Assembly: GCA_903926565.1 (NCBI GenBank)
Contig: CAIYJU010000163.1
Location: 1 to 64,000, forward strand
DNA: 64,000 bases
Direction: 5' to 3'
DNA from: an uncultured Bacteroidales bacterium
Lineage (GTDB): Bacteria; Bacteroidota; Bacteroidia; Bacteroidales; FEN-979
Part shown: piece by piece, positions 33,766 through 52,235 of the stretch
Position numbering within the stretch: position 1 is the first letter of the stretch
Layout: every line of letters starts with the position of its first letter
The notes under the pieces: generated by a model
Database searches by the model: none
Seen by the model: the letters and a program-made list of their open reading frames with translations, nothing else
What the model was told of the DNA's origin: nothing
Translations under genes and position numbers: made by a program

Positions 33766-33767
33766 CC

Positions 33768-35489
33768 ATGGCAGAAAGAATCGTAATAGATCCCATCACC
33801 CGCATTGAAGGTCACCTGCGGGTTGAAATTGAAGTCACCAACGGTAAAATTACCGATGCCTGGAGTGCAGGCACCATGGTTCGGGGTATTGAGACCATCC
33901 TGAAAGGCCGTGATCCGCGGGATGCATGGGCTTTTGTAGGCCGTGTTTGCGGAGTTTGCACCTCAACCCATTCGCTCACTTCTGTGCGAACCGTGGAGAA
34001 TGCACTCGGCATTTCGGTGCCACCCAACGCAGAGCTCATCAGGAACCTGATGGCCAATGCCTTGTATATCCAGGACCACGTGGTTCATTTTTATCAGCTG
34101 CATGCCCTCGACTGGGTCGATGTGGTTTCAGCGCTTAAGGCCAACCCGGCTGAAGCATCACGGATTGCACAGAGTATCTCCTCCTGGCCCAAAAGCTCGG
34201 TTGGGTATTTCACAGACATCCAGAAAAAGTTTAAAAATTTCGTTGAAAGCGGTCAGCTGGGGATTTTCGCCAATGGTTACTGGGGACACAAAGCCTATAA
34301 ACTTCCGCCGGAAGTGAACCTTATTGCCGTGGCACATTACCTTGAAGCCCTTGAATGGCAAAAGGAACTGGTGAAAGTGCACACTATTTTCGGCGGGAAG
34401 AACCCCCACCCGAACTATCTTGTGGGCGGGGTTCCATGTTCCATCAACATCGAAGAGGCAAACGCTGTTAATGCTGAAAGGCTTGCCTTTGTTGGCAAAC
34501 TATTCGAAGATGCAAAAACGTTCGTGGATCAGGTTTATATTCCTGACCTGGTTGCCATCGCCGGTTTTTATAAGAGTGACTGGGGTGCCATCGGCGGCGG
34601 TCTGACAAACTACCTTTCATTTGGTGATTTCCCATCAAACGGGTACGATAACCCTGAGAGTTTCAAAATGCCACGCGGAGCCATACTGGGCCGTGACCTG
34701 AGTAAAATCCATGAGGTTAAAGCTGACGATCCGGAACAGATCCAGGAGTATGTCAACAACTCATGGTATGAGTATTCCAAAGGCGATAAGACAGGTCTTC
34801 ATCCGTGGGAAGGGGAGACCAAGTTTAACTATACAGGACCCAAACCACCTTATGAGCATCTTGATTTCTCACAGAAATACAGCTGGGTGAAGACTCCCCG
34901 CTGGAAAGGGAATGCAATGGAAGTGGGCCCGTTATCGCGCATGCTTGTGGGCTATGCCTCGGGCCGTGCCGATTATAAGGAGGTGATTGAAAGTACGCTG
35001 AAAGCCCTGGATGTGCCTGTGGCAGCATTGTTCTCCACGCTTGGCCGCACTGCAGCCCGTGGCCTGGAGACCAAACTGGTTTGCGGCTGGGCCCTGGAGT
35101 TTTATCAGCAGCTTCTTGCCAACATCAAAAATGGGGATAGCCGTACCCAGAACAACGCCAAATGGGAGCCTGAAACATGGCCCAAACAGGCAAAAGGCAT
35201 CGGCATGGTGGAAGCTCCCCGTGGCGCTCTTTCGCATTTTATCGTGATTGAGGATAAGAAAATTGCCAACTATCAGCTTGTCGTACCCACAACCTGGAAT
35301 GCTTCTCCACGCGACCTTAAAGGTCAGCGCTCGGCATTTGAAGAGTCGCTCATCGGAACTCCGGTTGCCGACCCGAAAATCCCACTGGAGGTATTGCGAA
35401 CCATCCACTCATTCGACCCTTGCCTGGCCTGTGCCGTGCATTTATACGACGAAAACGGAACCACAATTCATGATCTGAAAACCTATTAG
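33768..35489 (+). CDS. hyaB: [NiFe] hydrogenase large subunit
   Basis: A 573-residue catalytic subunit for H2 oxidation on the periplasmic side. The nickel site is formed by the L1 motif RVCGVCTSTH (C61, C64) and the L2 motif DPCLACAVH (C552, C555, H558). Fifteen residues after H558 form the C-terminal peptide that the endopeptidase HyaD removes once the metal centre is loaded. The mature subunit is carried through Tat as a complex with the small subunit. Length and motifs fit group 1 membrane-bound enzymes. It is tightly linked to hyaA and hyaC. Confidence 0.97.
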   Translation: MAERIVIDPITRIEGHLRVEIEVTNGKITDAWSAGTMVRGIETILKGRDPRDAWAFVGRVCGVCTSTHSLTSVRTVENALGISVPPNAELIRNLMANALYIQDHVVHFYQLHALDWVDVVSALKANPAEASRIAQSISSWPKSSVGYFTDIQKKFKNFVESGQLGIFANGYWGHKAYKLPPEVNLIAVAHYLEALEWQKELVKVHTIFGGKNPHPNYLVGGVPCSINIEEANAVNAERLAFVGKLFEDAKTFVDQVYIPDLVAIAGFYKSDWGAIGGGLTNYLSFGDFPSNGYDNPESFKMPRGAILGRDLSKIHEVKADDPEQIQEYVNNSWYEYSKGDKTGLHPWEGETKFNYTGPKPPYEHLDFSQKYSWVKTPRWKGNAMEVGPLSRMLVGYASGRADYKEVIESTLKALDVPVAALFSTLGRTAARGLETKLVCGWALEFYQQLLANIKNGDSRTQNNAKWEPETWPKQAKGIGMVEAPRGALSHFIVIEDKKIANYQLVVPTTWNASPRDLKGQRSAFEESLIGTPVADPKIPLEVLRTIHSFDPCLACAVHLYDENGTTIHDLKTY

Positions 35490-35491
35490 CC

Positions 35492-36211
35492 ATGAGAAAC
35501 CGATCTGTTCCTTTGCGGGAAGTGCATGTATGGGAGATGCCTGTACGAGTCTACCACTGGATCAATGCGCTGTGTATTGTCGTACTCTGTGCCACCGGTT
35601 ATCTGATCGGCAGCCCGCTCGCCTTTATGAATGGTACCGAAGCCTATTTTAATTATTGGTTCGGAACGGTACGGTTCATTCATTTTGTAAGTGCATTCCT
35701 GTTCTTCTTCAATTTTGTGTTCCGTCTTTACTGGGGTTTCACCGGAAATGAGTTTTCGCGGTGGTACAATTATATCCCGTTAAAGCGTTGCCAGTGGAAG
35801 GAGATGATGGAGGTGATCAAAGTGGATATCCTGCAGCTGACCAATAAAAAAATAGATTCCATCGGTCATAATTCGCTGGCGAGTTTCATCTATTTTATCA
35901 CTTTTCTGATCTTCCTGTTGCAGTGTCTTACCGGTTTTGGAATGTATGCGGCCATGAGCAATGCTTTTTTACCAAAGCTTTTTGCATGGATTGTGCCATT
36001 TCTGGGCGGAGATATGCAGGTACGACAAATCCATCATATCCTGATGTGGGGGTTCATCCTCTTTGCCATGGTGCACATGTACCTGGTGTTTTATCACGAT
36101 TATATTGAGCGGAGAGGGGTAACCTCTTCCATGATCGGAGGATGGAAGTTCATCGAAGAAGATGTGATCGAACGTCACGACAACAGAACGGAGGAGTGCC
36201 CGAAAGATTAA
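35492..36211 (+). CDS. hyaC: Ni/Fe-hydrogenase b-type cytochrome subunit
   Basis: A 239-residue integral membrane protein with four hydrophobic helices (about 22-42, 63-85, 130-152, 185-205) and conserved His residues for two b hemes, including VYHWINA in helix 1, RFIHF before helix 2 and QIHHILMW before helix 4. It anchors the hydrogenase heterodimer and passes electrons to the quinone pool. It starts two bases after hyaB and is followed 19 bases later by the maturation protease. The position and length match HyaC/HupC of uptake hydrogenases. Confidence 0.94.
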   Translation: MRNRSVPLREVHVWEMPVRVYHWINALCIVVLCATGYLIGSPLAFMNGTEAYFNYWFGTVRFIHFVSAFLFFFNFVFRLYWGFTGNEFSRWYNYIPLKRCQWKEMMEVIKVDILQLTNKKIDSIGHNSLASFIYFITFLIFLLQCLTGFGMYAAMSNAFLPKLFAWIVPFLGGDMQVRQIHHILMWGFILFAMVHMYLVFYHDYIERRGVTSSMIGGWKFIEEDVIERHDNRTEECPKD

Positions 36212-36230
36212 CCGCTCAATAAACTGACTT

Positions 36231-36701
36231 TTGACTGATACGCTGAACAGCATCCTGGTGCTCGGGATTGGAAATCTATTGATGAATGATGAAGGCATTG
36301 GCATCCATGTCGTGAACCGGCTGGAGAAAGATGGCGGTATCCCGGGTGTTGACCTCATGGATGGCGGTACCGGTGGATTTCACCTGCTTGGGTTTATCCA
36401 GTCCTATAAAACCATTATCATCGTTGATGCTTCTTTAGACGAACACCCACCGGGGCATGTCCGGGTTTTGCAGCCCCGCTATGCAAGGGATTTCCCAAAA
36501 CAGCTCAGTGCACACGAAATCGGGCTGAAAGACCTGATCGATTCGGCCATCCTGCTGGGAAATATGCCGCAACTTCACCTGATAGCCATATCTGTGAAGG
36601 ATTTCCAGGATATGGGGCTTGAACTATCTGCAGAAGTGGAGGCTTCAATTCCGGTTGCAATCACTTATGTCAAGGATATCGTTTATCGGGTAATCAATTA
36701 A
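36231..36701 (+). CDS. hyaD: Hydrogenase maturation endopeptidase
   Basis: A 156-residue protein starting with TTG, the only start that includes the first strand (SILVLGIGNLLMNDEGIGIHV). The nickel-sensing residues of the HybD/HyaD family are present: Glu in NDEGIG, Asp in MDGGTGG and His in SAHEIGL. It cleaves the C-terminal peptide of the large subunit after nickel insertion. Its last about 95 bases and 20 bases of 3' flank recur in a diverged copy at 48483, beside hypB, which suggests a past duplication or recombination here. Confidence 0.92.
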   Translation: MTDTLNSILVLGIGNLLMNDEGIGIHVVNRLEKDGGIPGVDLMDGGTGGFHLLGFIQSYKTIIIVDASLDEHPPGHVRVLQPRYARDFPKQLSAHEIGLKDLIDSAILLGNMPQLHLIAISVKDFQDMGLELSAEVEASIPVAITYVKDIVYRVIN

Positions 36702-36739
36702 TGTAAAATACAGACATTCAATATATTAAAAAAAGTTCT

Positions 36740-36836
36740 CGCAGATTTTCGCAGATTAGTTTCGCAGATTCACGCAGATTTTTTTAATGTATTTGATACA
36801 GGTTTTATTGTTTTTATTTTCTGCGAAAATCTGCCG
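36740..36836. repeat. CGCAGATT short-repeat element with inverted copy
   Basis: Four CGCAGATT units stand at 36740, 36750, 36763 and 36773. An inverted counterpart (TCTGCGAAAATCTGC) lies at 36820-36834, so the region could fold into a hairpin. It fills the gap after hyaD and ends where the T9SS domain remnant begins. It looks like a small intergenic repeat family, though its copy number cannot be seen from one window. Confidence 0.7.
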
Positions 36837-36847
36837 AATTATTTGAC

Positions 36848-37096
36848 TTGCACGTGTACCCGAATCCTGTCAGCAACGTCTGCAATGTGACATTTGCACT
36901 CGATCAGCCTGGCAACGTGAAGCTTACGCTGACCTCACCGATGGGGCAGACAGTTTCCACCCTGATAAACATGCATCTCTTACAAGGTAAACATTCCTTT
37001 CGTTATAACACTTATGCACTTATTCCTGGTTTATACCAATTTTTACTGCAACAGGGAGAAAAGATATCTGTCCGAAAAATCATCCAGGTAAGATAG
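36848..37096 (+). pseudogene. T9SS C-terminal sorting domain remnant
   Basis: An 82-codon frame encoding only a type A sorting domain: it begins with VYPNPVSN and ends with GEKISVRKIIQV. There is no signal peptide or passenger domain. The reading frame runs upstream straight into the CGCAGATT repeat, so the passenger was probably lost by deletion at that repeat. TTG at 36848 is the only nearby start. It is best read as the 3' remnant of a secreted-protein gene. Confidence 0.72.
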
Positions 37097-37131
37097 CCCT
37101 AAAATTTCCGATACTTATTTTTAGAAAATAA

Positions 37132-37162
37132 TTGATTTTCGCTCTTTTATCGCTTATCTTTA
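37132..37162 (+). promoter_or_regulatory. Bacteroidota-type promoter candidate for the LytTR regulator
   Basis: TTG at 37132-37134 and TATCTTTA at 37155-37162 (one mismatch to TAnnTTTG) are 20 bases apart. They lie 63 bases before the ATG at 37226. Confidence 0.45.
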
Positions 37163-37225
37163 TCGGGTTTTTTAAGCCTGATGTACAGGTAGTTTTTCCC
37201 ATTTGGCAACCAACCCGATTCAGTT

Positions 37226-37978
37226 ATGGTGCGAGTAGTCCTTATTGATGACGAAGATCACATCCGTGATTCACTGGTAAAGCTTCTGGAACGGAATTGC
37301 CAGCAAGTTTCGGTTATCGGAACCGCATCCGGAGTTCACAGCGGCATCAGGATCATCCGGGAACTGAACCCCGATCTTGTTTTACTTGACATCCAGATGA
37401 ATGATGGCACCGGCTTCGACTTGTTGCAAGCCTTTCCCAGGGTCGATTTTAAAGTTATTTTTATCACGGCGTATGATCAATATGCGCTTCAGGCGTTTCG
37501 TTTCAGCGCCATCGACTACCTCCTTAAACCGGTAAATCCTGAACACCTTGTTTCCGCAATCGGCCGTGCAGCGCTGTTTATCAGAGATCACTTCAACATG
37601 CAGATAGAGGCATTGTATGAGAACCTCAGATCTGTTTCAAGGCAGGACAAGAAAATCATATTAAAAACCACGGAACAGATACATCTGCTTGATCTGAAAA
37701 ACATTGTAACCTGCGAATCCGACAGTTGTTACACCACCGTTCATACCATTGAAGGAGAACACATTATGGTGGCGAAAACGCTGAAAGAATACGAAGAGAT
37801 GCTGGCAGGATGCGGATTCTACCGGGCTCATAAATCGCATTTGATCAACCTGGCGCACATCAAGCGGTTTGACAGGCAGGATGGCGGGTATATTGTGCTG
37901 ACCAATGATATGAAGATACCGGTTGCATCAAGGAAACGGGAGGAGATGATGGCGTTGCTGGAGAAAATGGCGGAGTGA
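37226..37978 (+). CDS. LytTR-family response regulator
   Basis: A 250-residue regulator. The receiver domain (1-120) has the acidic pair at residues 8-9, phospho-acceptor D55 in LVLLDIQ, Thr in FITAYD and Lys in YLLKPV. The LytTR DNA-binding domain (about 150-248) has ILKTTEQIHLLDLKNIVTCESD and FYRAHKSHLINLAHI. It is followed 27 bases later by a LytS-like kinase, so the two form a two-component system. Such pairs control surface and secreted proteins in this phylum. A related but degenerate receiver lies at 47609. Confidence 0.94.
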   Translation: MVRVVLIDDEDHIRDSLVKLLERNCQQVSVIGTASGVHSGIRIIRELNPDLVLLDIQMNDGTGFDLLQAFPRVDFKVIFITAYDQYALQAFRFSAIDYLLKPVNPEHLVSAIGRAALFIRDHFNMQIEALYENLRSVSRQDKKIILKTTEQIHLLDLKNIVTCESDSCYTTVHTIEGEHIMVAKTLKEYEEMLAGCGFYRAHKSHLINLAHIKRFDRQDGGYIVLTNDMKIPVASRKREEMMALLEKMAE

Positions 37979-38005
37979 GGTATCATAACAGTTATTGTAT
38001 TCATC

Positions 38006-39904
38006 ATGCGCAAATTTCTGATCGTTTCCCTTATTCTGATTCCAAGCCTGATGTCTGCCAATAAAGGTTTGCGCCTTGCCAAAGGCCAGGAAAACTCCGT
38101 TAACATTGCCCTGGAGAAAGTCAATGTTGGGAATGCCTATTATAATAAATTGGATTTCAAAAATGCCCTGCTGGCATACTTGTCCGCCTTGAAAATCCTT
38201 GAAGACAATAAAATTTTTAAAGCATCCGCAGAGGTGTGTCTGCAACTTGGCAATATAAATTTCTTTATCATGAGAAGTGATAAAGCGATCTCTTATTACC
38301 ACAAAGCGATTTCGTATTATCAGGCTGCAGGTGATGAAACATCCCTGCCAATCGTTTACGATGCCATGGGGCTCTCCATGTTTTTTTTGAGATATGGACC
38401 CATTGACAGCGCACTTATTTATGGGAATAAATTATTGAATTATTCACGAACGTTTCCTGATCGCTCACTGGAGGCTTACGCGCTGATGGTGGTAGGAATG
38501 TATTATCTGGATGAAACCAGGTCAGTGTCCAGAAAACAAAAAGTGCTGACATACAGTGATTCCGCATTAAACCGGGCGGTGGAACTTCATAATAATGAAC
38601 TTATTTCTATCATCTACAGCAACTTTGCAGGCTTTTATGACCGCACTTCGCCGCTTTTCGAATTGACCGGGAATCTGTCCTTTTCGCGACATTATTATGA
38701 TAAAGCGTACCATGCCGCCAAACAGGCAGCAAGCAGTTATTTGCAGGCCAGGATACTGAATTATCTGGCCGCAATCGACATAGAGGAGGGGAAGTATGAC
38801 ATGGCAGAAAACCGCCTGGAATTAAGTGAAACCAAGCTGAATGAACCATTTCAGTTTTCTGAAAACAGCATTCCCTTCACCCTCAATTCGCAGTTCCACA
38901 AAATATTTCAGTACTTTTTGATTCAGCTACAACGAACAGATATGTATGAGGCCCGGTTTAAGCTGGCTATGGCAAAAGGAGAATTCAGGAAAGCAGTGGA
39001 TTACCTGCAATTCTACCATCGGTCACAAGATACGATTACCGCCTCGCACCAGGGGCGGCAACTCGAATTGCTGATGGCAGAGGACGAGGCTTATAAACAG
39101 GATCAAAAGATCAGGACGCTTGCACAGGCCAACGAATTGAATAATCTTAGATTATCTCAATCCCGGACTCGGTTCATTGTTACCGGTACCGGCATTGCAT
39201 TGGTCAGCATTATTCTGCTGTTGTTTCTCCAACGGAGGAAATTACGGGCGGAGCAACAATCAATTGCCACGGAACAGCGCTTGCTCAGGGCGCAAATGAA
39301 TCCCCATTTCATCTTCAACTCCCTGGCCAGCATCCAGAATTTCGTGATCAACGAAGAATCCGGCAAAGCAAGCATTTACCTGTCCCGGTTCTCTCAATTG
39401 GTCCGAAATATCCTTGACAATTCAACAGAGGAATATGTGACCCTTGAAAAAGAGATCAGTACGATTGAAAATTACCTGGTTTTGCAAAAGGTGCGGTATG
39501 CCGGTAAATTCGATTACAAGATCGCTGTTGATGAAACGCTCCGTACAGAAGATCTGCTGATTCCCCCGATGCTGGCACAACCATTCATTGAAAATGCGAT
39601 CGAGCACGGGATCCGGCACAAATCAACATCCGGACAAATTGAAGTCCGCTTCCAGCAAAAAGGCGGAATTATCAGGGTGGAAGTGGAGGACAATGGTGTT
39701 GGCCGGGAAAAGGCACTCGAAATTGAATCTAAACATAACATCAGGCACCGTTCCATGGCGATATCTATAACGAGAGACCGCCTCGATCTTCTCAACAAAA
39801 AGCTGAAAAACAAAATCCGTATGAATATCGTCGATCTCAAAGACGCTGATGGTCAAGCCTGTGGGACACGGGTGGAGTTTGGGATACCGTTGGTGAAAAA
39901 TTAA
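38006..39904 (+). CDS. LytS-type sensor histidine kinase with TPR sensor region
   Basis: A 632-residue protein. The N-terminal signal-like segment (FLIVSLILIPSLMSA) precedes a helical TPR region (about 30-370) that would lie in the periplasm. A membrane helix follows at about 390-410, and the cytoplasmic His_kinase domain carries the phospho-acceptor H434 in QMNPHFIFNSL. The HATPase domain has an N-box (PFIENAIEHGI) and a DNGVG block. The kinase pairs with the LytTR regulator upstream. The signal is unknown. TPRs suggest a protein or peptide ligand. Confidence 0.92.
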   Translation: MRKFLIVSLILIPSLMSANKGLRLAKGQENSVNIALEKVNVGNAYYNKLDFKNALLAYLSALKILEDNKIFKASAEVCLQLGNINFFIMRSDKAISYYHKAISYYQAAGDETSLPIVYDAMGLSMFFLRYGPIDSALIYGNKLLNYSRTFPDRSLEAYALMVVGMYYLDETRSVSRKQKVLTYSDSALNRAVELHNNELISIIYSNFAGFYDRTSPLFELTGNLSFSRHYYDKAYHAAKQAASSYLQARILNYLAAIDIEEGKYDMAENRLELSETKLNEPFQFSENSIPFTLNSQFHKIFQYFLIQLQRTDMYEARFKLAMAKGEFRKAVDYLQFYHRSQDTITASHQGRQLELLMAEDEAYKQDQKIRTLAQANELNNLRLSQSRTRFIVTGTGIALVSIILLLFLQRRKLRAEQQSIATEQRLLRAQMNPHFIFNSLASIQNFVINEESGKASIYLSRFSQLVRNILDNSTEEYVTLEKEISTIENYLVLQKVRYAGKFDYKIAVDETLRTEDLLIPPMLAQPFIENAIEHGIRHKSTSGQIEVRFQQKGGIIRVEVEDNGVGREKALEIESKHNIRHRSMAISITRDRLDLLNKKLKNKIRMNIVDLKDADGQACGTRVEFGIPLVKN

Positions 39905-39939
39905 ATGACGAAATAGGCCTGACAATTTAGCAAAACCAG

Positions 39940-39970
39940 TTGCATTTCCTGAATAAACATATTAAATTTG
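39940..39970 (+). promoter_or_regulatory. Bacteroidota-type promoter candidate for the DUF4143 ATPase
   Basis: TTG at 39940-39942 and TAAATTTG at 39963-39970 (a full TAnnTTTG match) have 20-base spacing. The ATG is 47 bases downstream. A second partial box, CATATTTG, lies closer to the gene. Confidence 0.5.
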
Positions 39971-40016
39971 TCCTTGAAATTTAAACACTCATATTTGTAT
40001 TTTCAAGGAACATTGC

Positions 40017-41150
40017 ATGATTCTTCGATCTCTTCTCAAGGAAAAAATTGAGCACTCACTTTTGGTTTCACCCGTTACAGCACTCCTGGGGCCAAGGCAA
40101 TGCGGCAAAACCACTATCAGCAGGCTGATTGCCGAAAATCATGACACTGTAATTTTCGATCTTGAAAATCCGGTAGATTTTCAACAGTTGTCTGTGGCGC
40201 CGATGATCACACTACAACCATTAACGGGCCTTATCATTATTGATGAGATTCAGCAACTCCCTGAACTGGCTGGCATTATCAGGGTTTTGGCCGACCGCAG
40301 GGAGCATCCGGCAAAATTCCTGATCCTTGGCAGTGCTTCCCCTTTCATGATGAAGTATGCTTCGGAATCTTTAGCCGGAAGAGTGGCCTTTATTGATATG
40401 TCTGGTTTTAATCTGCAGGAAGTTGGTTCCCGGCAACTTAGAAAACTTTGGATCCGGGGTGGGTTTCCGCGTTCGTTCTTAAGCGAAGATGAGCGGACAA
40501 GTTTTCAATGGAGGCAGGATTTTATACGTACGTTCCTTGAACGTGACATACCCCAGCTTGGAATTTCCATTCCTTCTGCTTCAATGAGAAGGTTTTGGAC
40601 CATGCTTGCCCATTATCATGGACAGGTATGGAACGGGTCAGAATTTGCACGTTCAATCGGGACTTCAGAACCAACAGCAAGAAGATATCTTGATATTCTT
40701 ACCGGTGCATTTGTAGTCAATCAACTGCAACCGTGGCATGAAAATATAAAGAAACGCCAGGTGAAATCGCCGAAAGTATATATCAGGGATACGGGAATGC
40801 TGCATGCATTGCTCTTTCTGGACAAAGATGCCATTTTACAGCATCCGAAACTCGGCTTGTCATGGGAAGGATTTATCATCGAAGAAATGATAAACATGTT
40901 GCAAACCCCTTGTTATTTCTGGGCCACCCACGCCGGAGCAGAGCTTGATTTGTTTACCATTCAAAAAGGTAAAAGAATTGGGTTCGAAATCAAATATTCA
41001 GATGCTCCGCAAATAACAAAGTCCATGCTGCATGCTATAGAAGATCTTTCGTTGGAACAATTATTCATCCTTTACCCGGGAGATAAAAATTATACAATCC
41101 ATGAAAAAATTCAAGTTATTGCAGCACAGAAAATGTACTCCGTTTTTTAA
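40017..41150 (+). CDS. AAA-type ATPase with DUF4143 domain
   Basis: A 377-residue protein of the widespread bacterial AAA_14/DUF4143 family. The ATPase half has Walker A LLGPRQCGKTT (about 24-34), Walker B LIIIDEIQQL and a sensor-like LGSASP. A winged-helix-like linker follows (about 205-245), then a C-terminal part with GFIIEEMI and ELDLFTIQKGKRIGFEIKYSD, which resembles a PD-(D/E)xK-type nuclease core (Asp, Glu and Lys in place). Its role in cells is not established. The gene stands alone between a two-component system and secreted-protein genes, and such genes are often recently acquired. Confidence 0.9.
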   Translation: MILRSLLKEKIEHSLLVSPVTALLGPRQCGKTTISRLIAENHDTVIFDLENPVDFQQLSVAPMITLQPLTGLIIIDEIQQLPELAGIIRVLADRREHPAKFLILGSASPFMMKYASESLAGRVAFIDMSGFNLQEVGSRQLRKLWIRGGFPRSFLSEDERTSFQWRQDFIRTFLERDIPQLGISIPSASMRRFWTMLAHYHGQVWNGSEFARSIGTSEPTARRYLDILTGAFVVNQLQPWHENIKKRQVKSPKVYIRDTGMLHALLFLDKDAILQHPKLGLSWEGFIIEEMINMLQTPCYFWATHAGAELDLFTIQKGKRIGFEIKYSDAPQITKSMLHAIEDLSLEQLFILYPGDKNYTIHEKIQVIAAQKMYSVF

Positions 41151-41231
41151 CCCTTCCCCCATTCACTAAATCACACACCTCGTTCACTAAACAGTTTCAG
41201 GCGTTCTCTTAACGGAGTCCATTCTGCATTT

Positions 41232-41267
41232 CAGAGATATTACATTTGATAACAACCAAAATCTCTG
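41232..41267 (+). promoter_or_regulatory. -7 box inside a small inverted repeat upstream of the beta-propeller gene
   Basis: TACATTTG at 41241-41248 matches TAnnTTTG. It is enclosed by the inverted pair CAGAGAT (41232-41238) and ATCTCTG (41261-41267), just before the ATG at 41271. No -33 TTTG is visible at the right distance, so an activator may be needed or the match may be chance. Confidence 0.35.
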
Positions 41268-41270
41268 ATT

Positions 41271-42584
41271 ATGAAAAAACAAGTTACTCTTTTAGTATTT
41301 AGTGCAATCCTGCATTCCTTCACTGGATTGAACGGAACCTTGGCGCAGGAAGCCCTGCAATTCAATGCAAATCCAAACAACCCGGCTTTGACCCATGGCG
41401 CCCCGGGAACATACGATGGTGAATTTTGCGTTTTGCCATATCCGCTATGGGATAACGGTACCTTCTACCTTTTTTACACCGGCAATGCGGGGGTTTGTTT
41501 TGCCACTTCTACCAACGGTTATAACTTTACCAAGTTTACCGGGAATCCTGTTTTGACAGCATCGGGCAGCGGATTCGACTCCCTGGGGGCTGCGCAGGCT
41601 GTCGTGCTGAAAGTCGGCCCGCAATGGGTGATGTATTACAATGCCCGCCAGTTTCCCGGATGGGGACCGGGTGAATCCATCGGCAGGGCAACTGCCGACA
41701 GCCTGACCGGCGCCTGGGATCGGTCTTTGGCACCGGTGCTGACCCTGGGCAGCCCGGGAGAATGGGATGCCGGCCTGATCACTCCGAACAATGTGTTTCC
41801 ATTGGCATCCGGCGGTTTTATCATGTATTATTATGCTTCAACTGATTTCAACGGTACATGGCTGATGGGAATGGCAACCTCCCCGGATGGAATAAACTGG
41901 ACGAAATACAACGATCCGGCCACAACCCAGGCGCCTTATGCCGAAAGCGACCCAATCTTACCAGCCGGTGAATCCGGCGAGTTTGACGAATGGGGTGTAC
42001 TTGGGGCCGGTGTTTTTAAAAAAGGCGGCTTTTATCACATGTATTACTCCGGGGTAGGTCCCGGCCCGGGCGGTTACCGGACTGACATTGGATTTGCCTA
42101 TAGCGCCGACGGCATCACGTGGCAAAAATGGGCGGAAAACCCGGTTTATGTCCAGGAAGATGACCCGTATTTCAATGCTAGCACCATGATATTTGAACAA
42201 CCGGGTGTACTGCTCTATAATTCAACTGTTTTCATCTATTATGATTACGGTGTGCAGGAAAATTCGCTCGGAATGGCCACCGATGATTTTACGGATAAAA
42301 TCAGCGAATGGGAACTTTCTGATTACGCATTGCGCATCACGAATTCGCCCAACCCTGTGACTCAGTCAACCACATTCTCCTACAATTTAGAGGAGTCGGG
42401 GCAAGTATCACTTGATATATTCGACAGTTTCGGCAGACTCATCGCCACGCCGGTAAATGAATGGCAGCAGAAGGGCGAAAAGCATGTTTTGTGGAATGCA
42501 GGCGAAGTTCCGGCAGGGGTTTACTTCCTCCGGCTCCATTCCGGGAAAAAGGAGGGGAATCGCAAGATGCTGGTGGTAAAATAA
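41271..42584 (+). CDS. Secreted five-bladed beta-propeller glycosidase-like protein with T9SS sorting domain
   Basis: A 437-residue protein with a signal peptide and a propeller region (about 45-345) whose blades repeat the pattern GxFYLFYTG, WVMYYNA, FIMYYYAST, YHMYYSG and VFIYYDYG. This is typical of the GH43/GH32/GH130-type folds. Acidic residues at blade starts (YDGEF, EWDAG, DEWGV) could be the catalytic pair. The last 80 residues are a T9SS type A domain (NSPNPVTQSTTFSYN to NRKMLVVK). A plant or algal glycan could be the substrate, but the family cannot be pinned down. The next gene follows after 12 bases. Confidence 0.82.
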   Translation: MKKQVTLLVFSAILHSFTGLNGTLAQEALQFNANPNNPALTHGAPGTYDGEFCVLPYPLWDNGTFYLFYTGNAGVCFATSTNGYNFTKFTGNPVLTASGSGFDSLGAAQAVVLKVGPQWVMYYNARQFPGWGPGESIGRATADSLTGAWDRSLAPVLTLGSPGEWDAGLITPNNVFPLASGGFIMYYYASTDFNGTWLMGMATSPDGINWTKYNDPATTQAPYAESDPILPAGESGEFDEWGVLGAGVFKKGGFYHMYYSGVGPGPGGYRTDIGFAYSADGITWQKWAENPVYVQEDDPYFNASTMIFEQPGVLLYNSTVFIYYDYGVQENSLGMATDDFTDKISEWELSDYALRITNSPNPVTQSTTFSYNLEESGQVSLDIFDSFGRLIATPVNEWQQKGEKHVLWNAGEVPAGVYFLRLHSGKKEGNRKMLVVK

Positions 42585-42596
42585 ACTCTCAAAAAG

Positions 42597-44768
42597 ATGA
42601 AACGAACCACCATCATCGTCCTTGCAGCAATCCTGCTTACAATCTGGTCATGGGGTCAGAATCCTGTCATCCTGTCCTGCCTCGAACAGGTCAGATCTGA
42701 TAGCATCCGTGCCACCATGGAGCATCTTCAGTCATTCGGAACACGGTATGCGTTGTCTGCGAACCGGAAAAATATCGCCACCTGGATATCGAATAAATTT
42801 TCCTCATTCGGATATCCCGATGTAAAGCTGGATTCCTTCCAGGTTGCGAACAACGATTCATCATACTGGCAGTACAACGTGGTCTGCACAATCACAGGGG
42901 CCTCTTCTCCCGGAGAAATTTGCATCATTGGCGGGCATTACGATTCATATTGCGAACCGGATCCTTTCATCGCGGCGCCGGGTGCCGACGATAACGGTTC
43001 GGCAGTGGCTGCCACCCTTGAAGCTGCACGCGTAATGAAGCTTATGAATTTTCAGCCTGAATCAACGATCCGGTTCATTCTCTTTGCAGCCGAAGAATTG
43101 GGTTTATCCGGCGCTTATCACCAGGCGAATGAATCCATAGAGAATGGTGAAGATGTCCGGCTGGTGTTCAACATGGACATGATCTCCAGCAACCCCGACA
43201 GCGTGAACAAGGTTTTCCTTTTCCGATACCGAAATGTTGAAAGCACATTTAACATAGCCTCGGATGCCTTCCGGCAATACACAAATCTGTCCGTATTTCC
43301 CGGCCTTCCCGAAATGGAATACCGATCGGATTCCTACGCATTCTGGATGAAGGGGTTCCCGGCAACCTGGGCGTTCGAATATGACTTCTGCCCCAACTAC
43401 CACACTGTAGCCGATATTGTATCGAATTGCAACATGGAATATTGTGCAGAGATCACAAAAGGGGCGCTTGCAACCATCATGGAAATGCAGTTCCGGCCAT
43501 TTCCTCCGGGTATCTCGTCGAAATCCTCCTCTGAAAATGTTACGATCAGGTGGAAACCTACGGAGAATAAACACCTGTCGGGATATAAAGTCTACCGGAG
43601 CGGGAACGACAGTGCCGGCTTTGTGCAGATTAATTCCGCATTGGTAACCGATACCTTTTATGTAGATCAGGCCGTGGAGACCAGAAAGGATTACTATTAC
43701 CTGGTAAGGCTGGTCAACGATCTGCAACAGGAAAGTGCGGCATCCAATACGGTGCACGGCGTGCGCTTTGGCTTCACCGACACGTTACTGGTAGTGGCCT
43801 GTATGAAAGGACAGCAAACCACCCCCGACAGCATCCGGCAATTCTATGCGTCGGTACTTGACAGCATCCCCTTCCGCTGGTTCGACCTCAACCAGTTGAG
43901 CCCCCTCACCCTTGGAACACTTTCACAACACAGGAACACTCTGTGGGTCATCAATTCCCTTGAATACAATGCGATTTCAGACGAGATGAAGGGAAACCTG
44001 CAATCCTTTTTTGAAAACAACGGGAACATGATGTTTGCAGGATTTTCCTTCTCAAGGTTTATCAACGGGAGCATAGGATTTCCATACAAACACCCGGAAA
44101 GTTCGATCGGTCGTACGTACTTTAAGGTTGATTCAACGCATAAAGCGATCAGCAGCTACATGTACCAGGCTTATCCTGACGAGGACGGATACGACACGTT
44201 GCGCCTGGATCCGGCAAAAGCCATGAAAGCAGGTTATCCGGGCGAATTAAACAATATCGAGGTGTTTATCCCGGTTTCAGGCGGAAATCCGGTTTATCGC
44301 TTCGATTCAAAGTACGATCCCGGAACGCCTCAAGGATCGCAACAGGACAAGATTGTCGGAGTGGAATATATGGGCGATGATTTCAAAACCATCCTGTTAA
44401 GCTTCCCCTTGTATTATCTCGACACTTCCGACGCCCGAACGATTATGAAACATGTGATCAGAAAGAAATTCGGAAGCCTGCAGGATATTCCAGCAACGGA
44501 AGGTCCCGGAGTTCTCGCAGTCCGGGTTTTTCCCAATCCATGTAAAAATGAAGCCACCTTATCATTCTCAGCACCTGACACCAGGCAAATCCAGGTTCAG
44601 ATTTACAATTTGTATGGTACAAAGGTCATTCAATTGATCAATCAGAGGCTGGACTTAGAGAAGCAATCCATTCGTTTTTCAACACGTGACCTGCCGTCAG
44701 GAATGTATTTCATCCGACTCCAGGCCGGGAGTAAAACAGGAACGGGTAAAATAGTGGTCGTAAAATGA
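42597..44768 (+). CDS. Secreted M28-family metallopeptidase with FN3 and T9SS sorting domain
   Basis: A 723-residue protein. After the signal peptide, an M28 aminopeptidase-like domain (about 35-300) shows all five zinc ligands: His in GGHYDS, Asp in PGADDNGSA, Glu pair in AAEELGLSG, Asp in FNMDMIS and His in PNYHTVAD. A fibronectin type III-like domain follows (about 310-390), then an unassigned region and a T9SS type A domain (VFPNPCKNEATLSFS to TGKIVVVK). It should act outside the cell on peptides. It lies in a series of co-directed secreted-protein genes. Confidence 0.92.
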   Translation: MKRTTIIVLAAILLTIWSWGQNPVILSCLEQVRSDSIRATMEHLQSFGTRYALSANRKNIATWISNKFSSFGYPDVKLDSFQVANNDSSYWQYNVVCTITGASSPGEICIIGGHYDSYCEPDPFIAAPGADDNGSAVAATLEAARVMKLMNFQPESTIRFILFAAEELGLSGAYHQANESIENGEDVRLVFNMDMISSNPDSVNKVFLFRYRNVESTFNIASDAFRQYTNLSVFPGLPEMEYRSDSYAFWMKGFPATWAFEYDFCPNYHTVADIVSNCNMEYCAEITKGALATIMEMQFRPFPPGISSKSSSENVTIRWKPTENKHLSGYKVYRSGNDSAGFVQINSALVTDTFYVDQAVETRKDYYYLVRLVNDLQQESAASNTVHGVRFGFTDTLLVVACMKGQQTTPDSIRQFYASVLDSIPFRWFDLNQLSPLTLGTLSQHRNTLWVINSLEYNAISDEMKGNLQSFFENNGNMMFAGFSFSRFINGSIGFPYKHPESSIGRTYFKVDSTHKAISSYMYQAYPDEDGYDTLRLDPAKAMKAGYPGELNNIEVFIPVSGGNPVYRFDSKYDPGTPQGSQQDKIVGVEYMGDDFKTILLSFPLYYLDTSDARTIMKHVIRKKFGSLQDIPATEGPGVLAVRVFPNPCKNEATLSFSAPDTRQIQVQIYNLYGTKVIQLINQRLDLEKQSIRFSTRDLPSGMYFIRLQAGSKTGTGKIVVVK

Positions 44769-44814
44769 CATTTCAATTCCAGAGTTGAATACAATAAGTC
44801 TAAAAACAGAACCG

Positions 44815-46155
44815 ATGAAAATAAAAATTTTACTTTTTCTGATGGCACTTACCCTGACGTTCAGTGTAAACAGCCAGAATATTACAGTCAACCTGTCCTT
44901 TAATGCCGTCAACAACACGGCTGCCACACGGCTCGACAGTGTGAAGATCGTGAACCTGACCCAGGATACTGAAACTGTCATATACTATCCTGACACAGCA
45001 TTGGCGCTTGGAATCACAACTGGAGACACATTACTTTACGTAGGGTATTCGAAAGGATTTGCGGTAGGAATTCATGAGATGGATCAGGTGAAGAAACAAT
45101 TTCAAGTGTATCAAAATTATCCAAACCCGGTAAAAGATCAAAGCGTTATCTCAATGTTTGTTCCCGGAAAAGGACTGGTTAGTTTACTGATTACCGATAT
45201 CTCAGGAAGGACGCTATTCAGTTCTGCCAGGCAACTTGAAGAAGGCACTCATTCATTCAGGTTCACTCCCGGAGATGGCCGGTTGTTTTTCCTCTCAGCC
45301 ACCTGGAACGGGATAGACCAGCGTGTCAAAATTCTTGCGGGTGAAACAAGGGTTGGCAACAGATGCACATTGGAATATGCGGGAACAGTTAACGGGAATC
45401 AATCCATAAAATCATCAACACAGGTTTCCACCGCTTCGCTGGAATCAGGGATTATCGATGCGCCGATCACGAATAAAAACTATACTTTTCAATTTGCTGC
45501 CAACATTCCCTGCCCGGGAACACCGTCAGTTACCTACGAAGGACAAACCTACAACACGGTTCAGATCTTCAGCCAGTGCTGGATCAAGGAAAACCTGAAT
45601 GTGGGAACCATGATCCAGGGAATGCAAAATATGGCAAATAACGGGATCATTGAAAAATACTGCTACAACAACCAGCCCGACAGTTGCACCAAATATGGCG
45701 GTTTGTACCAATGGGATGAAATGATGCAATATGTCACACAACAGGGGGTGCAGGGCATCTGCCCGCCGGGCTGGCACCTGCCAACCGATGAAGACTGGAA
45801 AATCATGGAAGGAGCGATGGACAGCCAGTATGGTATGGGAGCCAATATCTGGGACTACAGTGGATTGCGGGGTTTTGATGTTGGCAAGAATCTGAAAACC
45901 ACCAGTGGATGGAAGAACAACGGAAACGGCACCGACCTGCTTGGTTTCTCGGCTTTACCGGGAAGCTACAGGATCTTATCCGGCACTTTCGATTTAACAG
46001 GCTATGAAGGGGTCTGGTGGATGTCTACAGCCTCCGCGATCAACTACGCATGGTACCGAAATCTATGGTTCTCCAGCCCGAAGGCAGGCCGGTTCAACGA
46101 CTCATACAGCTTCAAGGATTACGGTTTCAGTGTTCGCTGTTTAAAGGATGATTAG
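44815..46155 (+). CDS. Secreted FISUMP-domain protein with internal sorting-domain-like module
   Basis: A 446-residue protein from ATG 44815, where the signal peptide (KIKILLFLMALTLTFSVNS) begins. An earlier TTG adds nothing homologous. A T9SS-like YPNPVKDQSVISM...LITDISGRTLFS module lies in the middle (about 95-170) instead of at the end. The C-terminal 210 residues are a FISUMP domain: YEGQTYNTVQIFSQCWIKENL, YGGLYQWDEMM, GICPPGWHLPTDEDW, and a terminal FSVRCLKD. FISUMP proteins are surface or secreted lipoprotein-like proteins of uncertain role. The displaced sorting-type module is odd. Confidence 0.87.
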   Translation: MKIKILLFLMALTLTFSVNSQNITVNLSFNAVNNTAATRLDSVKIVNLTQDTETVIYYPDTALALGITTGDTLLYVGYSKGFAVGIHEMDQVKKQFQVYQNYPNPVKDQSVISMFVPGKGLVSLLITDISGRTLFSSARQLEEGTHSFRFTPGDGRLFFLSATWNGIDQRVKILAGETRVGNRCTLEYAGTVNGNQSIKSSTQVSTASLESGIIDAPITNKNYTFQFAANIPCPGTPSVTYEGQTYNTVQIFSQCWIKENLNVGTMIQGMQNMANNGIIEKYCYNNQPDSCTKYGGLYQWDEMMQYVTQQGVQGICPPGWHLPTDEDWKIMEGAMDSQYGMGANIWDYSGLRGFDVGKNLKTTSGWKNNGNGTDLLGFSALPGSYRILSGTFDLTGYEGVWWMSTASAINYAWYRNLWFSSPKAGRFNDSYSFKDYGFSVRCLKDD

Positions 46156-46250
46156 TCGGCCCGACATAAATTTCCTGTATCCGGGGCGGAATCAGGACAA
46201 ACCAGAATCTTCGATCGATGAATTTCAATTCAACTTTAAACTCAAAGACC

Positions 46251-47573
46251 ATGAAAAAAACAATTCTGCTTTCAGTATTTCTTCTGTGCAATGCATTATT
46301 TTCTTTCGGACAGTGGCCGACCTCTGATTTATCTGAGGCTAAAAAAAACATGGGCACAGCGGTACTTGGTACAAAGGTTTATTATGCAGGAGGGAATAAT
46401 GGAACAAATTCCCTGTCAACCGTAGAAGTTTATGACATCGCAACCGGAACATGCTCTGTTGCCGGCAATTTATCTAATGCCAGGGAGATAATATCAGGGG
46501 TTTCCTGCGGCTCAAAGGTGCTGTTTGCCGGAGGGATGGATTGGAGCACAAACTATGCAACTGTAGATATATTTGATGCCGTGACCCAGTTATGGACCGT
46601 CGAACAACTATCTGTTCCGCGATTTTCGATGGCTGCGGTAAGCCATGACACCAGGGTTATGTTTGCCGGGGGAATTCAGATTTTCACAAATAATTGGAGC
46701 AGCCTGGTAAATATTTTCGATATCCAAACCGGCGGGTGGTCAACAACCAACCTGTCGCAGCCCAGAGAAGGTATTGCGGCCGTAGTTGTGGGAGACCGTG
46801 CGCTCTTTGCCGGCGGGTTTGGATTTGGAATGACGACCAACCGGGTGGACATCTACAACTTTGCCACGAATACCTGGAGTAAGGATTCACTTTCCCTGGC
46901 AAGGGGCTTTGCAAGTGCCACTACCGTGGGCAACAAGGTGATCATTGCAGGCGGCATCACCAGTTTGAATAATACTACCAACAGGGTGGACATTTACGAT
47001 GCATTGACAGGAACATGGGATACTGCAAGTCTTTCCTTTCCCAGGGCTTCACAGGGAAATGCAGCCACCTGCAATGGCAAGGCGTATTTTGCCGGTGGTG
47101 GTGTTTTCATGGGAAGCGGCTATTATTCCCCCTCGGATGTCATTGATATTTATAACCCTGCAAATGACACCTGGACCGTGACGAGCCTAAATGAACCGCT
47201 TTTGGAACATTCAGTTGCCGGGGTCGGAAATTTCATCCTGGTTGCAGGAGGAAAAAATGGCCAGGGAAACTTTGTTTCAACCATTGAAATATTGGATTTT
47301 GTCGGTGGCATTGCCCCTTCATCAAAGGACAATACACTTTTCAGGGTCCATCCGAACCCCAGTTCCGGCAACATCCGCCTGGATTTGCCAAAAGAAAATC
47401 ATCAGAAGCCAATCACAGCAATCGTATACAACTTGCAGGGACAGGTGGTTTTCTCTCAGATAATCGAAACTGCCAACCCCGGGTTGAATATGAATCTGGC
47501 AGATGGCATATACCTGTTGAAAGTCATTTCGGGAACTGCTGCACACACTGAGTTGATTGCAATTCAGAATTAA
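46251..47573 (+). CDS. Secreted kelch-repeat protein with T9SS sorting domain
   Basis: A 440-residue protein from ATG 46251, the start of a clear signal peptide (KKTILLSVFLLCNALFSFG). Seven kelch-like blades of about 47 residues share the pattern GxKVxFAGGxxxxxxxxxVDIYDxxTxTW, giving one complete beta-propeller (about 30-350). The C-terminus is a T9SS type A domain (VHPNPSSGNIRLDLP to ELIAIQN). Kelch propellers usually bind proteins or glycans. A catalytic role is not visible. It is the last of four secreted-protein genes and ends 35 bases before a degenerate receiver gene. Confidence 0.9.
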   Translation: MKKTILLSVFLLCNALFSFGQWPTSDLSEAKKNMGTAVLGTKVYYAGGNNGTNSLSTVEVYDIATGTCSVAGNLSNAREIISGVSCGSKVLFAGGMDWSTNYATVDIFDAVTQLWTVEQLSVPRFSMAAVSHDTRVMFAGGIQIFTNNWSSLVNIFDIQTGGWSTTNLSQPREGIAAVVVGDRALFAGGFGFGMTTNRVDIYNFATNTWSKDSLSLARGFASATTVGNKVIIAGGITSLNNTTNRVDIYDALTGTWDTASLSFPRASQGNAATCNGKAYFAGGGVFMGSGYYSPSDVIDIYNPANDTWTVTSLNEPLLEHSVAGVGNFILVAGGKNGQGNFVSTIEILDFVGGIAPSSKDNTLFRVHPNPSSGNIRLDLPKENHQKPITAIVYNLQGQVVFSQIIETANPGLNMNLADGIYLLKVISGTAAHTELIAIQN

Positions 47574-47608
47574 TCTGCAAATTGTAAAATGCACAATAGA
47601 AACTCAAC

Positions 47609-47977
47609 ATGCTGCGCGTGCTCATCATCGATGATGAATCTGATATCCGGCACACCCTTTCCGATATGATTGCAAGACATTGTCCCCAGATAAGCCTGGT
47701 GGGAACTGTAACTTGCATGGAAGACGGTGTTAATGCCATACGAACAATGCAGCCTGATCTTGTTTTCCTGAACATCGGCAGGAAAAATCAAACAAAAATT
47801 AATCTGCTTTGTGCAGTGAGGACCATCGAATTCAAAGTAATCGCCATATCTGCCTTCGATAAAGCCAGGATCCAGGCATTAAAATTAAGCGGCATCGAAT
47901 ACCTGTTGAAACCCATTGACCCTACGGTGCTGGAAAGCGCGGTAAGACGCATTCAGGCAACTTCAATCAATAACTGA
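47609..47977 (+). CDS. Receiver-only protein lacking the phospho-acceptor Asp
   Basis: A 122-residue protein closely similar in outline to the receiver of the LytTR regulator at 37226. The acidic pair (IDDE) and Lys (LLKPI) are kept. The phospho-acceptor is Asn (N55 in LVFLNIG) where the relative has D55, and the stop follows the receiver with no LytTR domain. It could be a truncated, decaying regulator or a phosphorylation-independent adaptor. The adjacent IS and hyaD remnants favour decay by rearrangement. Confidence 0.8.
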   Translation: MLRVLIIDDESDIRHTLSDMIARHCPQISLVGTVTCMEDGVNAIRTMQPDLVFLNIGRKNQTKINLLCAVRTIEFKVIAISAFDKARIQALKLSGIEYLLKPIDPTVLESAVRRIQATSINN

Positions 47978-48031
47978 GATTGCTGCAATTTTGAGACAAG
48001 GGCATAGAGACCACAACATTGTGTTATTTTC

Positions 48032-48062
48032 AAAAAAAAACCCCCGAAAAAAAATCCGGAGG
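48032..48062 (-). terminator. Rho-independent terminator-like hairpin (- strand)
   Basis: Read on the - strand, CCTCCG and CGGGGG can pair (one G-T) around a T-rich loop, and a run of nine T follows. It lies downstream of the transposase remnant and is probably its original terminator. Confidence 0.5.
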
Positions 48063-48063
48063 C

Positions 48064-48477
48064 TCATGAAGATAATTTCAGGGGGTTATTCCAATTCCTT
48101 GATTGATCTCCGGATAATCTCAAGCGCCTCCTGTTTTCAGCGTTGCAACACCCTGAAAATATTTGTGGATTTTGATGGTTGCCATCTTTGCTAAAGCCTG
48201 TTTTACGCAAATCATCTTCGTTGCTTGCCTCAAAATAAAGCATCGTCGTATCATGAAAAACCACGCTGATATTGCCTTGTAAAACCATTTTTGTGTGGGC
48301 GAAAGCTATCTGTTCAACCTGGGCTTGCAGTTTGCTATTTAGCTTATCTAAAAACCGATAAACCGCATCAATATCAAGCATTACTCCTTGAAAACGGAAC
48401 AAATAATCAATACCCATTTTCAAAAATCATCGCAATAAAATCAAGAGTTTTGGAGCGCTTTTTTTAAAAGTGCGGAA
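48064..48477 (-). pseudogene. IS1634-type transposase remnant, internally deleted and frameshifted
   Basis: On the - strand a 119-codon frame encodes the early part of an IS4/IS1634-like transposase: DIDAVYRFLDKLN, HTKMVLQGNISVVFHDTTMLYFE and DDLRKTGFSKDGNHQNPQI. After this point the frame breaks. A typical transposase C-terminus (EALEIIRRSIKELE, stop at 48086) follows in another frame with no catalytic middle. Upstream of 48423 the sequence RSKTLDFIAMIFENG continues in a third frame. The element has lost most of its length and both ends. It lies exactly between the degenerate receiver and the hyaD fragment, so it probably mediated the rearrangement of the hydrogenase locus. Confidence 0.82.
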
Positions 48478-48482
48478 AACAG

Positions 48483-48578
48483 GAGGATATGGGGCTTGAA
48501 CTTTCTCCGGAAGTGGAGGCTGCAATTCCGGTTGCCATCAGGCATGTAAAGGATATTGCAGAATTCACAAACAATTAA
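48483..48578 (+). pseudogene. 3' fragment of a second hyaD-type maturation protease
   Basis: Thirty-one codons plus stop read EDMGLELSPEVEAAIPVAIR and HVKDIAEFTNN, matching the end of HyaD (QDMGLELSAEVEASIPVAIT, then YVKDIVYRVIN). The DNA match continues about 20 bases past the stop (TTAATGTAAAA, then CAG). No upstream part exists: the transposase remnant begins a few bases away. It converges on hypB, whose stop is 17 bases further. Confidence 0.85.
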
Positions 48579-48594
48579 TGTAAAACGCAGGTAT

Positions 48595-49443
48595 TTATCG
48601 CTGTTTTTCCAGCCAGTCGTACCATCCTTGCATCCCGTCCCCCGTTTTTGCCGACATCAGGATAAATTCAAGGTTCGGGTTTAGTTCCCGGGCATATTTT
48701 ATGGCAGATTCCACGCTGAAATCAACATAAGGCAAAAGGTCGGTTTTATTGATGATGCAGAGGTTGGATGATTGAAACATATAGGGATATTTCATGGGTT
48801 TATCATCACCTTCGGTTACACTGATGACAACCACCCTTTTCTGTTCTCCAAGGTCGAACATTGCCGGGCAAACCAGGTTTCCCACATTTTCAATAAACAG
48901 GATTGCGTCGTTTTCAACCTCCATTTTTTTCAAGGCATTGTGAATCATTTTGGCATCGAGGTGACATCCCGACCCGGTGTTGATCTGGATGGCCGGAGCG
49001 CCTGATTTTTCAATCCGTTCGGCATCCCTCGTGGTTTGTTGATCTCCCTCAATCACGAAGATTTTATGTGCAGAGATCAACTGACGGATTGTTTTTTCAA
49101 GGATGGTGGTTTTTCCTGAACCGGGGGAACTCACCATGTTCAGGGTAAGAACCTGTTTTCCTTCGAAATAACCCCTGTTTCGTTCGGCCAGGCGGTTGTT
49201 CTCCGAGAGGATATCCATATTGAGATTGATCACTTTTTTCTCTTCATGGCCATGGTGATGGGAGTGCCCGTGGGCATGATCATGATCATGGGAGTGACCA
49301 TGGTCATGCAGGTGATCGTGTCCATGATCGTGTCCATGATCGTGTCCATGTGTGTTATGGTGTCCATGGTGATGACCGTGACCATGCTGAGGGTCGTTTA
49401 TCTTAAAATCGTCGGGGTTTCCGCATCCGCATGTTTCGCACAT
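48595..49443 (-). CDS. hypB: Hydrogenase nickel incorporation GTPase, His-rich
   Basis: A 282-residue protein from ATG 49443, which gives the N-terminal MCETCGCG nickel-binding motif. A His-rich segment of about 50 residues follows (about 18-68) and can store nickel or zinc. The GTPase domain has Walker A SPGSGKTT, the ENVGNLVCP metal/switch region (Cys for Ni/Zn) and NKTDLL. With HypA it inserts nickel into the large subunit. It is the last gene of the hyp operon (- strand). Reading further upstream to 49590 would add an unrelated extension. Confidence 0.96.
49255..49400 (-). repeat. Low-complexity His/Asp codon repeats in hypB
   Basis: Repeated CATGATCATGG- and CCATGATCGTGT-type 12-base units encode HGHDHGHD runs. 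The near-identical tandem copies suggest slippage-prone growth of the metal-binding tract. Confidence 0.75.
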
Positions 49444-49520
49444 AATAGATGATTTATTAGTTATAAAAATGTCTGCCTGTGATTGAATATGCCTTGTTGA
49501 AAATACTGATTCATAAGTGT

Positions 49521-49862
49521 TTATACGGTAACCAGTGACAAGACCCTGAACTCCTGCCCACCAGATATTTCCGCCGGAAAACAATTGCATTCCGGGCAGG
49601 TATCAAGCCTGTGTTTCATCTCAAATTCCACGCTGCATGCGCTGCATTTACCAGTTCCCGGAGTATGGACCATTTTAATTATGGCCTCTTCAAGTAAGGT
49701 GTTTTTTACAAGGAGTTCCAGTGCTGAAAGAAAGGCATCTGCCTCAACACCGCAGAGACTGCCCACTTCTATCTCAATTTCGTGAATGGCAGAAACATTG
49801 CTTTTCCGCGCTTCACGTTGTACCAGTTCAATAACCTCCATGGCCAGGGAAAGTTCATGCAT
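49521..49862 (-). CDS. hypA: Hydrogenase nickel metallochaperone
   Basis: A 113-residue protein. ATG 49862 is chosen because HypA must begin with MHE, whose His2 binds nickel. A start at 49898 would hide it. The zinc site is formed by two CxxC pairs (CSAC, CPEC) in the C-terminal half. It works with HypB in nickel delivery. It lies 10 bases after hypE and 77 before hypB. Confidence 0.96.
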
Positions 49863-49872
49863 CAGCTTAAGT

Positions 49873-51971: not shown

Positions 51972-52010
51972 GGGCCGGTTTTATTACTTCTCACCCCGTC
52001 AGGGTCCATT

Positions 52011-52235
52011 TTACTGCGGACTGTTATCAGCAATTTCATTCAGGAGCCGCAAGGTTTCTGCTGCTTCATCTGCATCCACTTTCTCGATGGCGAACCCGGC
52101 ATGAAGCATGATAAAATCACCCGGCTTTACATCGTCAAGCAGCATCAGGCTTGCTTTGTATTCAACGTCTTCGATAGTTACCAGGGCATTTGACCCCTCT
52201 ATGCTGATCACCTTTGCAGGTATGGCTAAACACAT
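52011..52235 (-). CDS. hypC: Hydrogenase assembly chaperone
   Basis: A 74-residue HypC/HupF-type protein starting MCLAIPAKV, where Cys2 carries the Fe(CN)2CO unit with HypD. The DVKPGDFIMLHAGFAIEKV segment is typical. It overlaps the hypF 3' end by 10 bases, so the genes are translationally coupled. Confidence 0.97.
   Translation of the reverse strand: MCLAIPAKVISIEGSNALVTIEDVEYKASLMLLDDVKPGDFIMLHAGFAIEKVDADEAAETLRLLNEIADNSPQ

Follow-up and report, generated by a model that had tools for sequence, protein, structure and literature searches.

A block of LytTR two-component and secreted-protein genes at the hyaD-hypB junction of a Bacteroidales hydrogenase locus

The window, a stretch of 64,000 nucleotides from an uncultured Bacteroidales bacterium (GCA_903926565.1, contig CAIYJU010000163.1), carries the genes of a [NiFe]-hydrogenase in two operons, the structural genes hyaABCD on the forward strand and the hyp maturation genes on the reverse strand, and between hyaD and hypB lies a block of genes with other predicted functions. 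How did this block come to lie there, where did it come from, and does it have any part in the system that it divides? An earlier note on this DNA had offered two readings, one of insertion or recombination between two hyaD copies and one in which most of a second protease gene was lost. The first of these is supported by the adjacency of the two genes in relatives and the presence of the block's gene cluster elsewhere in relatives; the loss of a second protease, for which no adjacent proteases were found, is not preferred and we consider it unlikely. The account that we favour, and hold to be probable, is a lineage-specific import into the convergent hyaD-hypB junction, accompanied by a duplication of the target.

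Gene order at the junction and inheritance of its flanks

The large-subunit search covered 149 genomes including the window's own, 27 of which matched at E<=1e-60; the hyaD search, also over 149 genomes with the own one included, gave matches at E<=0.001, often distant ones, in 51, and the hypB search covered 46 genomes, 30 of which matched at E<=1e-40. In 15 of the 17 same-family relatives compared, hyaABCD and the hyp genes converge directly on each other, a comparison which left out G038 and G041 (both with a large-subunit match). G012 and G015 have the hya and hyp genes on different contigs, while G002 has hyp genes and gives no large-subunit match at E<=1e-60. In the seven order-level relatives compared, hypB never follows hyaD; hypE lies upstream of hyaA in six, and within the stretch taken five of these have hypD there too. 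A second scan of named genomes, partly overlapping the first set, yielded 72 loci; 39 of the 49 closest (L152-L200) have a convergent hypB on the same contig, no more than 300 bp away in 35 and 0.6-1.2 kb away in four (counts made by hand, gaps measured between matched stretches). The other ten comprise eight loci without hypB in the 1.3-10 kb after hyaD and two cut off by the contig end. The expectation of the earlier note, that the two operons would be convergent neighbours if the block were removed, is borne out by these counts. Judged from gene order, the ancestral state is that of hyaABCD and the hyp genes facing each other directly, and since the closest relatives keep hyaD and hypB adjacent, the block is read as a lineage-specific insertion.

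Four other loci carry smaller inserts, so that the hyaD-hypB junction appears to take up DNA repeatedly; inserts in L172, L174 and L185 encode a Bro-N protein, a GxxExxY nuclease-fold protein and a DUF1801 protein. By eye, the GxxExxY (PDDEXK_3) gene at the junction in L174 (L174:3194-3850) has inverted CGCAGAG-type repeats on both sides, and gene and repeats may form a mobile unit related to the dispersed palindromic repeat family described below. Also seen by eye were short tandem repeats, e.g. of GTGACAC and ACAATGT units, in the hyaD-hypB spacers of L093, L104, L105 and L108, and, in G012 (L094, L095), a thiL-like gene after hyaD and a threonine aldolase-like gene after hypB.

Trees were built of hyaABCD and of hypBAEDF from 14 genomes, and of the ornithine aminotransferase gene rocD from 13. 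Both hydrogenase trees have the topology ((window,G018),G016), with support for the pairing with G018 of 0.95 (hya) and 0.97 (hyp) and for G016 as the next genome of 0.74 and 0.999, respectively. G018 and G016 share with the window the divergent gene upstream of hyaA (homologues of 30970-32376, 43% and 40%), and in all three DUF4197 lies beyond hypF. Because the hya and hyp trees agree, both flanks look native and co-inherited; a separate origin of the two operons, with one half imported, is unsupported for the same reason. The hyaD-hypB gap is only 5 bp in G018 and 22 bp in G016, which together with the native look of the flanks places the insertion most likely after the split from G018.

The duplicated hyaD end and the joining of the block

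The intact maturation protease gene hyaD (36231..36701, forward strand; 156 aa; NCBIfam hydrog_prot, E 3.8e-38; full-length alignment with relatives) ends in one copy of a duplicated sequence. The left copy (36607-36717, forward strand) consists of the last ~95 bases of hyaD and the hyaD-hypB spacer, and the right copy (48484..48595, forward strand) of 31 sense codons in frame to the hyaD stop, followed by the spacer which reaches into the hypB stop. Alignment of 36607-36717 with 48484-48590 gives 80% identity over 102 bp (E 1.3e-20), and the left copy, used as a query against the whole own genome, matched only itself and the right copy. The two copies are thus homologous and not alike by chance, in agreement with the earlier note, which had described the hyaD end as recurring, diverged, immediately before hypB.

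The two hyaD tails are 86% identical to each other over 24 codons, and either tail reaches at most 76% against 48 relatives. In the 22-base stretch which runs from the stop into the spacer the tails agree at 17 positions, as compared to at most 15 for 47 relatives and a maximum of 14 for shuffled sequence. As the tails are closer to each other than to those of the relatives, the doubling would be young in this lineage; it seems to postdate the split from the sampled relatives and probably belongs to the event which inserted the block. A search of the DNA taken downstream of hyaD in 67 of the 72 loci, 47 of which belong to the 49 closest, gave no duplicated hyaD end, nothing beyond words of 20-22 bp matching at E<=0.01, and the hyp-side loci of G012 and G015 give no hyaD match at E<=1e-4.

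A right stub which keeps its frame to the stop also suits a different history, in which two full hyaD genes, a tandem or an imported duplicate, once flanked the block and the larger part of the right one disappeared later, together with the activity of an IS1634-type insertion sequence (IS), a remnant of which lies just upstream of the stub. The stub, moreover, is not visibly decaying faster than the gene: at the 21 sites which differ between the tails, the majority base of the relatives is found in the right copy at 8, in the left at 5 (all 48 relatives) or 4 (the 13 nearer ones), and in neither tail at 8 or 9. These counts are, however, too few for significance (relative-rate comparison, 8 versus 4 sites, p 0.39), an extra duplication would be needed, and two protease genes side by side are present in none of the loci examined; we therefore give this history little credit. 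G008 has one protease in each of two hya-hyp loci, which lie on two short contigs (L104, L105) and could represent a second locus or a strain mixture, and in G025 and G032 a second, distant hyaD match is found elsewhere (28-29% identity).

The same tails bear on the possibility of a site-specific integrative element in the hyaD 3' end, of which the left tail would be element-borne, having replaced the native end, while the right tail would be the native one. Prophages and islands replace gene 3' ends in this way, e.g. in icd, and integrative elements which target 3' ends resemble the present locus in having a duplicated gene end, with the complete gene on one side and a stub on the other. As in relatives, the right copy is spaced close to hypB; the homology starts at an identical core of 19 bp, the longest exact word common to both copies, and is diverged beyond it; and 41 of the 48 relatives are nearer to the right tail, 3 to the left, with 4 ties, in rows that are related and so not independent. 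Comparison with relatives, however, shows that the identical core encodes a conserved HyaD protein motif and so may reflect constraint, the content of the block is not element-like, and no integrase was found among the ten block open reading frames (ORFs) searched (Pfam, one also with NCBIfam; other overlapping ORFs lay outside the search). An element of this type is in our judgement improbable here.

The two edges of the block carry further pieces, both of which the earlier note had picked out. The left one (36734..36836, unstranded) belongs to a dispersed family of palindromic intergenic repeats, with CGCAGATTTT units in inverted arms and a predicted hairpin (z -3.9). A search for the CGCAGATT repeat returned 38 stretches of the own genome at E<=1, a number which includes the window's own copy and both arms of some copies, with several inverted pairs. 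Within the CGCAGATTTT family (L276-L287, L121) the arms are 0 to ~1,700 bp apart, the widest of which may be separate copies, and two other copies form strong hairpins (z -9.4 and -5.2). The piece on the right (48133..48411, reverse strand) is a decayed IS1634-family transposase remnant, recognised by NCBIfam (E 6.3e-16) and by tblastx to IS1634 copies of other genomes; it covers model positions 98-167 of 483 and, being a fragment, scores 58.5 bits where the curated cut-off is 100. It is the piece that could speak for a composite transposition driven by IS1634, but it is a single decayed remnant, no second IS was seen at the left boundary, and no match to IS1634 at E<=1e-20 occurs in the own genome. 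Searched against the own genome, 47980-48484 finds only itself. A target duplication of 105 bp also far exceeds that of IS1634-type elements, which counts against such a transposition, and we regard it as extremely improbable.

The draft state of the assembly, with 210 contigs, and the presence of a dispersed repeat at the left boundary raise the question of a chimera of two genomes. In a comparison confined to 17 loci of the own genome, the exact words shared with the junctions are at most 26 bp at the left junction and at most 14 bp at the two right-hand ones, which is too short for the usual mis-join, and both flanks are syntenic with relatives and lie on one contig of 120 kb. A chimera is accordingly very unlikely.

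In the import that we favour, a segment of ~11.77 kb would have entered the ancestral convergent hyaD-hypB junction after the split from G018, and ~105 bases of the target, the hyaD 3' end with the spacer, would have been duplicated, so that the left copy completes hyaD and the right one remains as a stub before hypB. For the joining we lean towards a circular or sister DNA molecule which shared the hyaD end and recombined, in preference to transposition.

Gene ends at the edges and the source of the block

From the left, the block is composed of the palindromic repeat, the end of an M28 peptidase gene (M28'), a cluster of LytTR two-component genes and genes for exported proteins of the type IX secretion system (T9SS), the end of rocD, the IS1634 scrap and the hyaD stub. 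The M28' stub (36824..37096, forward strand), which forms the left edge of the supposed import, retains the last ~90 codons with the T9SS sorting tail (Por_Secre_tail, E 2.3e-07) and corresponds to what the earlier note had called a beheaded T9SS domain. The right edge is formed by the rocD stub (48034..48133, reverse strand; named by TIGR01885), a piece absent from the list of the earlier note, which consists of the last 15 sense codons, the stop and a terminator, with a terminator-like stem at 48038-48065.

M28' and rocD lie side by side and convergent in G018, G012, G002 and on contig C91 of the own genome. The donor would probably be a related species in whose genome the LytTR-regulated cluster separated rocD from an M28 peptidase gene; the ends of the two genes would have been carried along. 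In amino acid identity the M28' stub is closest to G012 (60% over 78 residues) and G018 (50% over 86), and it resembles the copy of its own genome less (38% over 90), which points to a relative as the source more than to internal copying; an intragenomic duplication from the M28'-rocD locus on C91 is disfavoured on the same figures. As its identity to any relative does not exceed 60%, the source would not be a sampled species. At the other edge, the 48 coding bases of the rocD stub agree at 42 positions with G012 and with G014, at 39 with G018 and at 37 with the own rocD, and blastn aligns the stub with G018 at 74% over 100 bp. The gap between M28' and rocD in G012 contains, on the opposite strand, a fragment which matches the kinase of the cluster (46% over 39 residues). 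The cluster itself sits elsewhere in G015, G002 and G008; that of G015 has an Eco57I-type methylase as its neighbour, with an AAA ATPase gene further away.

Several observations weigh against an import from such a donor. The rocD stub, with its 48 coding bases, hardly separates import from internal copying, and the M28' tail is just 60% alike to the best relative. M28' stands beside rocD in no more than the four loci named above, out of 30 rocD loci (flanks <=1.5 kb), and the whole cluster between the two genes is present in no genome examined. The nearest relative of the cluster is G015 (kinase 69% identity), not G012 or G018, and the rocD tree does not pair the window's genome with G018, so that genes differ in their histories within the genus. 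Finally, the junctions rest on one assembly. What the comparisons show directly is the adjacency of hyaD and hypB in relatives, the homology of the two hyaD copies, the make-up of the block and its M28' and rocD stubs; the transfer between species and the order of events are what we infer.

The cluster, its putative operator and the hydrogenase

Pfam domains agree with the earlier description of the block as holding secreted-protein and two-component genes. All genes of the cluster are on the forward strand. The first encodes a LytTR response regulator (37226..37978; Response_reg and LytTR) and adjoins that of a sensor kinase with His_kinase/HATPase domains and a TPR-like region (38006..39904; weak FimS-type match). 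These are followed by an AAA_14/DUF4143 ATPase (40017..41150), a secreted glycosidase-like protein with a T9SS tail (41271..42584; weak, sub-threshold GH130 match), an M28 peptidase with a T9SS tail (42597..44768), a Fib_succ_major (FISUMP) domain protein (44785..46155), a kelch-repeat protein with a T9SS tail (46218..47573) and a REC-only response regulator (47609..47977; Response_reg). Of the four proteins of the cluster which are predicted to be secreted, three have a C-terminal Por_Secre_tail domain, the FISUMP protein being the exception; the domain is also found in the M28' stub. The REC-only gene is unlikely to be a truncated regulator, as a short form of 140 aa occupies the same place in the cluster of G015; matches in G002 and G008 likewise span only the first ~135 residues. 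Rfam gave nothing at gathering scores over 36000-49000.

Ahead of the glycosidase-like gene, a triple direct repeat CGTTCACTAAA with a period of 21 bp (41160..41212, forward strand) is a putative LytTR operator of the cluster; LytTR regulators bind direct repeats of about 21-bp spacing. G015, G002 and G008 have comparable sites ahead of a cluster gene (L142:4727; L143:593 and 5590; L144:6378). Shuffled 13-kb stretches contained no such site in 20 trials, and a two-repeat pattern occurs once in the own genome, with none for the reversed control. Of the 19 genus genomes searched, four have the site, in each case within the cluster; they are exactly the genomes which carry the kinase, and the 15 without the kinase lack the site. 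The second kinase locus of G002 (L145) is without a repeat site. As the patterns for the own genome and for the genus differ slightly and were both chosen after the sites had been seen, these counts speak for consistency and are not an independent discovery.

The block resembles LytTR regulons of the AgrA/LytSR type in its REC-LytTR regulator, its His_kinase/HATPase sensor and its direct repeats of ~21-bp period, and differs in having a single genomic site, a triple repeat and a position ahead of T9SS-exported cargo. We infer a self-contained regulon of secreted proteins without link to the hydrogenase, which most likely acts as an independent sensor-regulated set. A more tentative idea, which we rate as possible but doubtful, is that of a portable regulon, in which the LytTR pair with its private triple-repeat operator and T9SS cargo moves as a unit between convergent Bacteroidales junctions, collecting the tails of neighbouring genes.

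On the left of the block, hyaA, hyaB and hyaC (32650..36211, forward strand) encode the small subunit, the large subunit and the cytochrome b of the [NiFe]-hydrogenase (NCBIfam hydA and Ni/Fe large subunit models, CytB-hydogenase). The small subunit (32650-33765) contains the motif ECTCCSESF, a motif found in oxygen-tolerant group 1 hydrogenases. On the right are the maturation genes hypB, hypA, hypE, hypD, hypC and hypF (48595..54433, reverse strand), of which hypB, hypA, hypE, hypD and hypF were identified with NCBIfam; the 74-aa ORF at 52011-52235, beginning MCLAIPAK, is presumably hypC on account of that motif. Since both operons keep whole genes, the hydrogenase should remain functional.

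Among the publications returned by searches of the literature, none had a title on this locus. As in a genomic island at a convergent junction, a foreign-looking block lies between two convergent operons, neither of which is broken; the block differs by the stubs from another junction and the duplicated host gene end, and it has no recognised mobility gene except the IS1634 scrap. As an insertion it is of an ordinary kind, with a history which is unusually easy to read. It is a case of a hydrogenase locus split with neither half harmed, and the scars at the two ends of the block give hints of the earlier surroundings of the inserted DNA. From the cluster with its private putative operator, a regulator and its target can be predicted for a two-component system of Bacteroidales, and the movement of the cluster could be traced through the genus.

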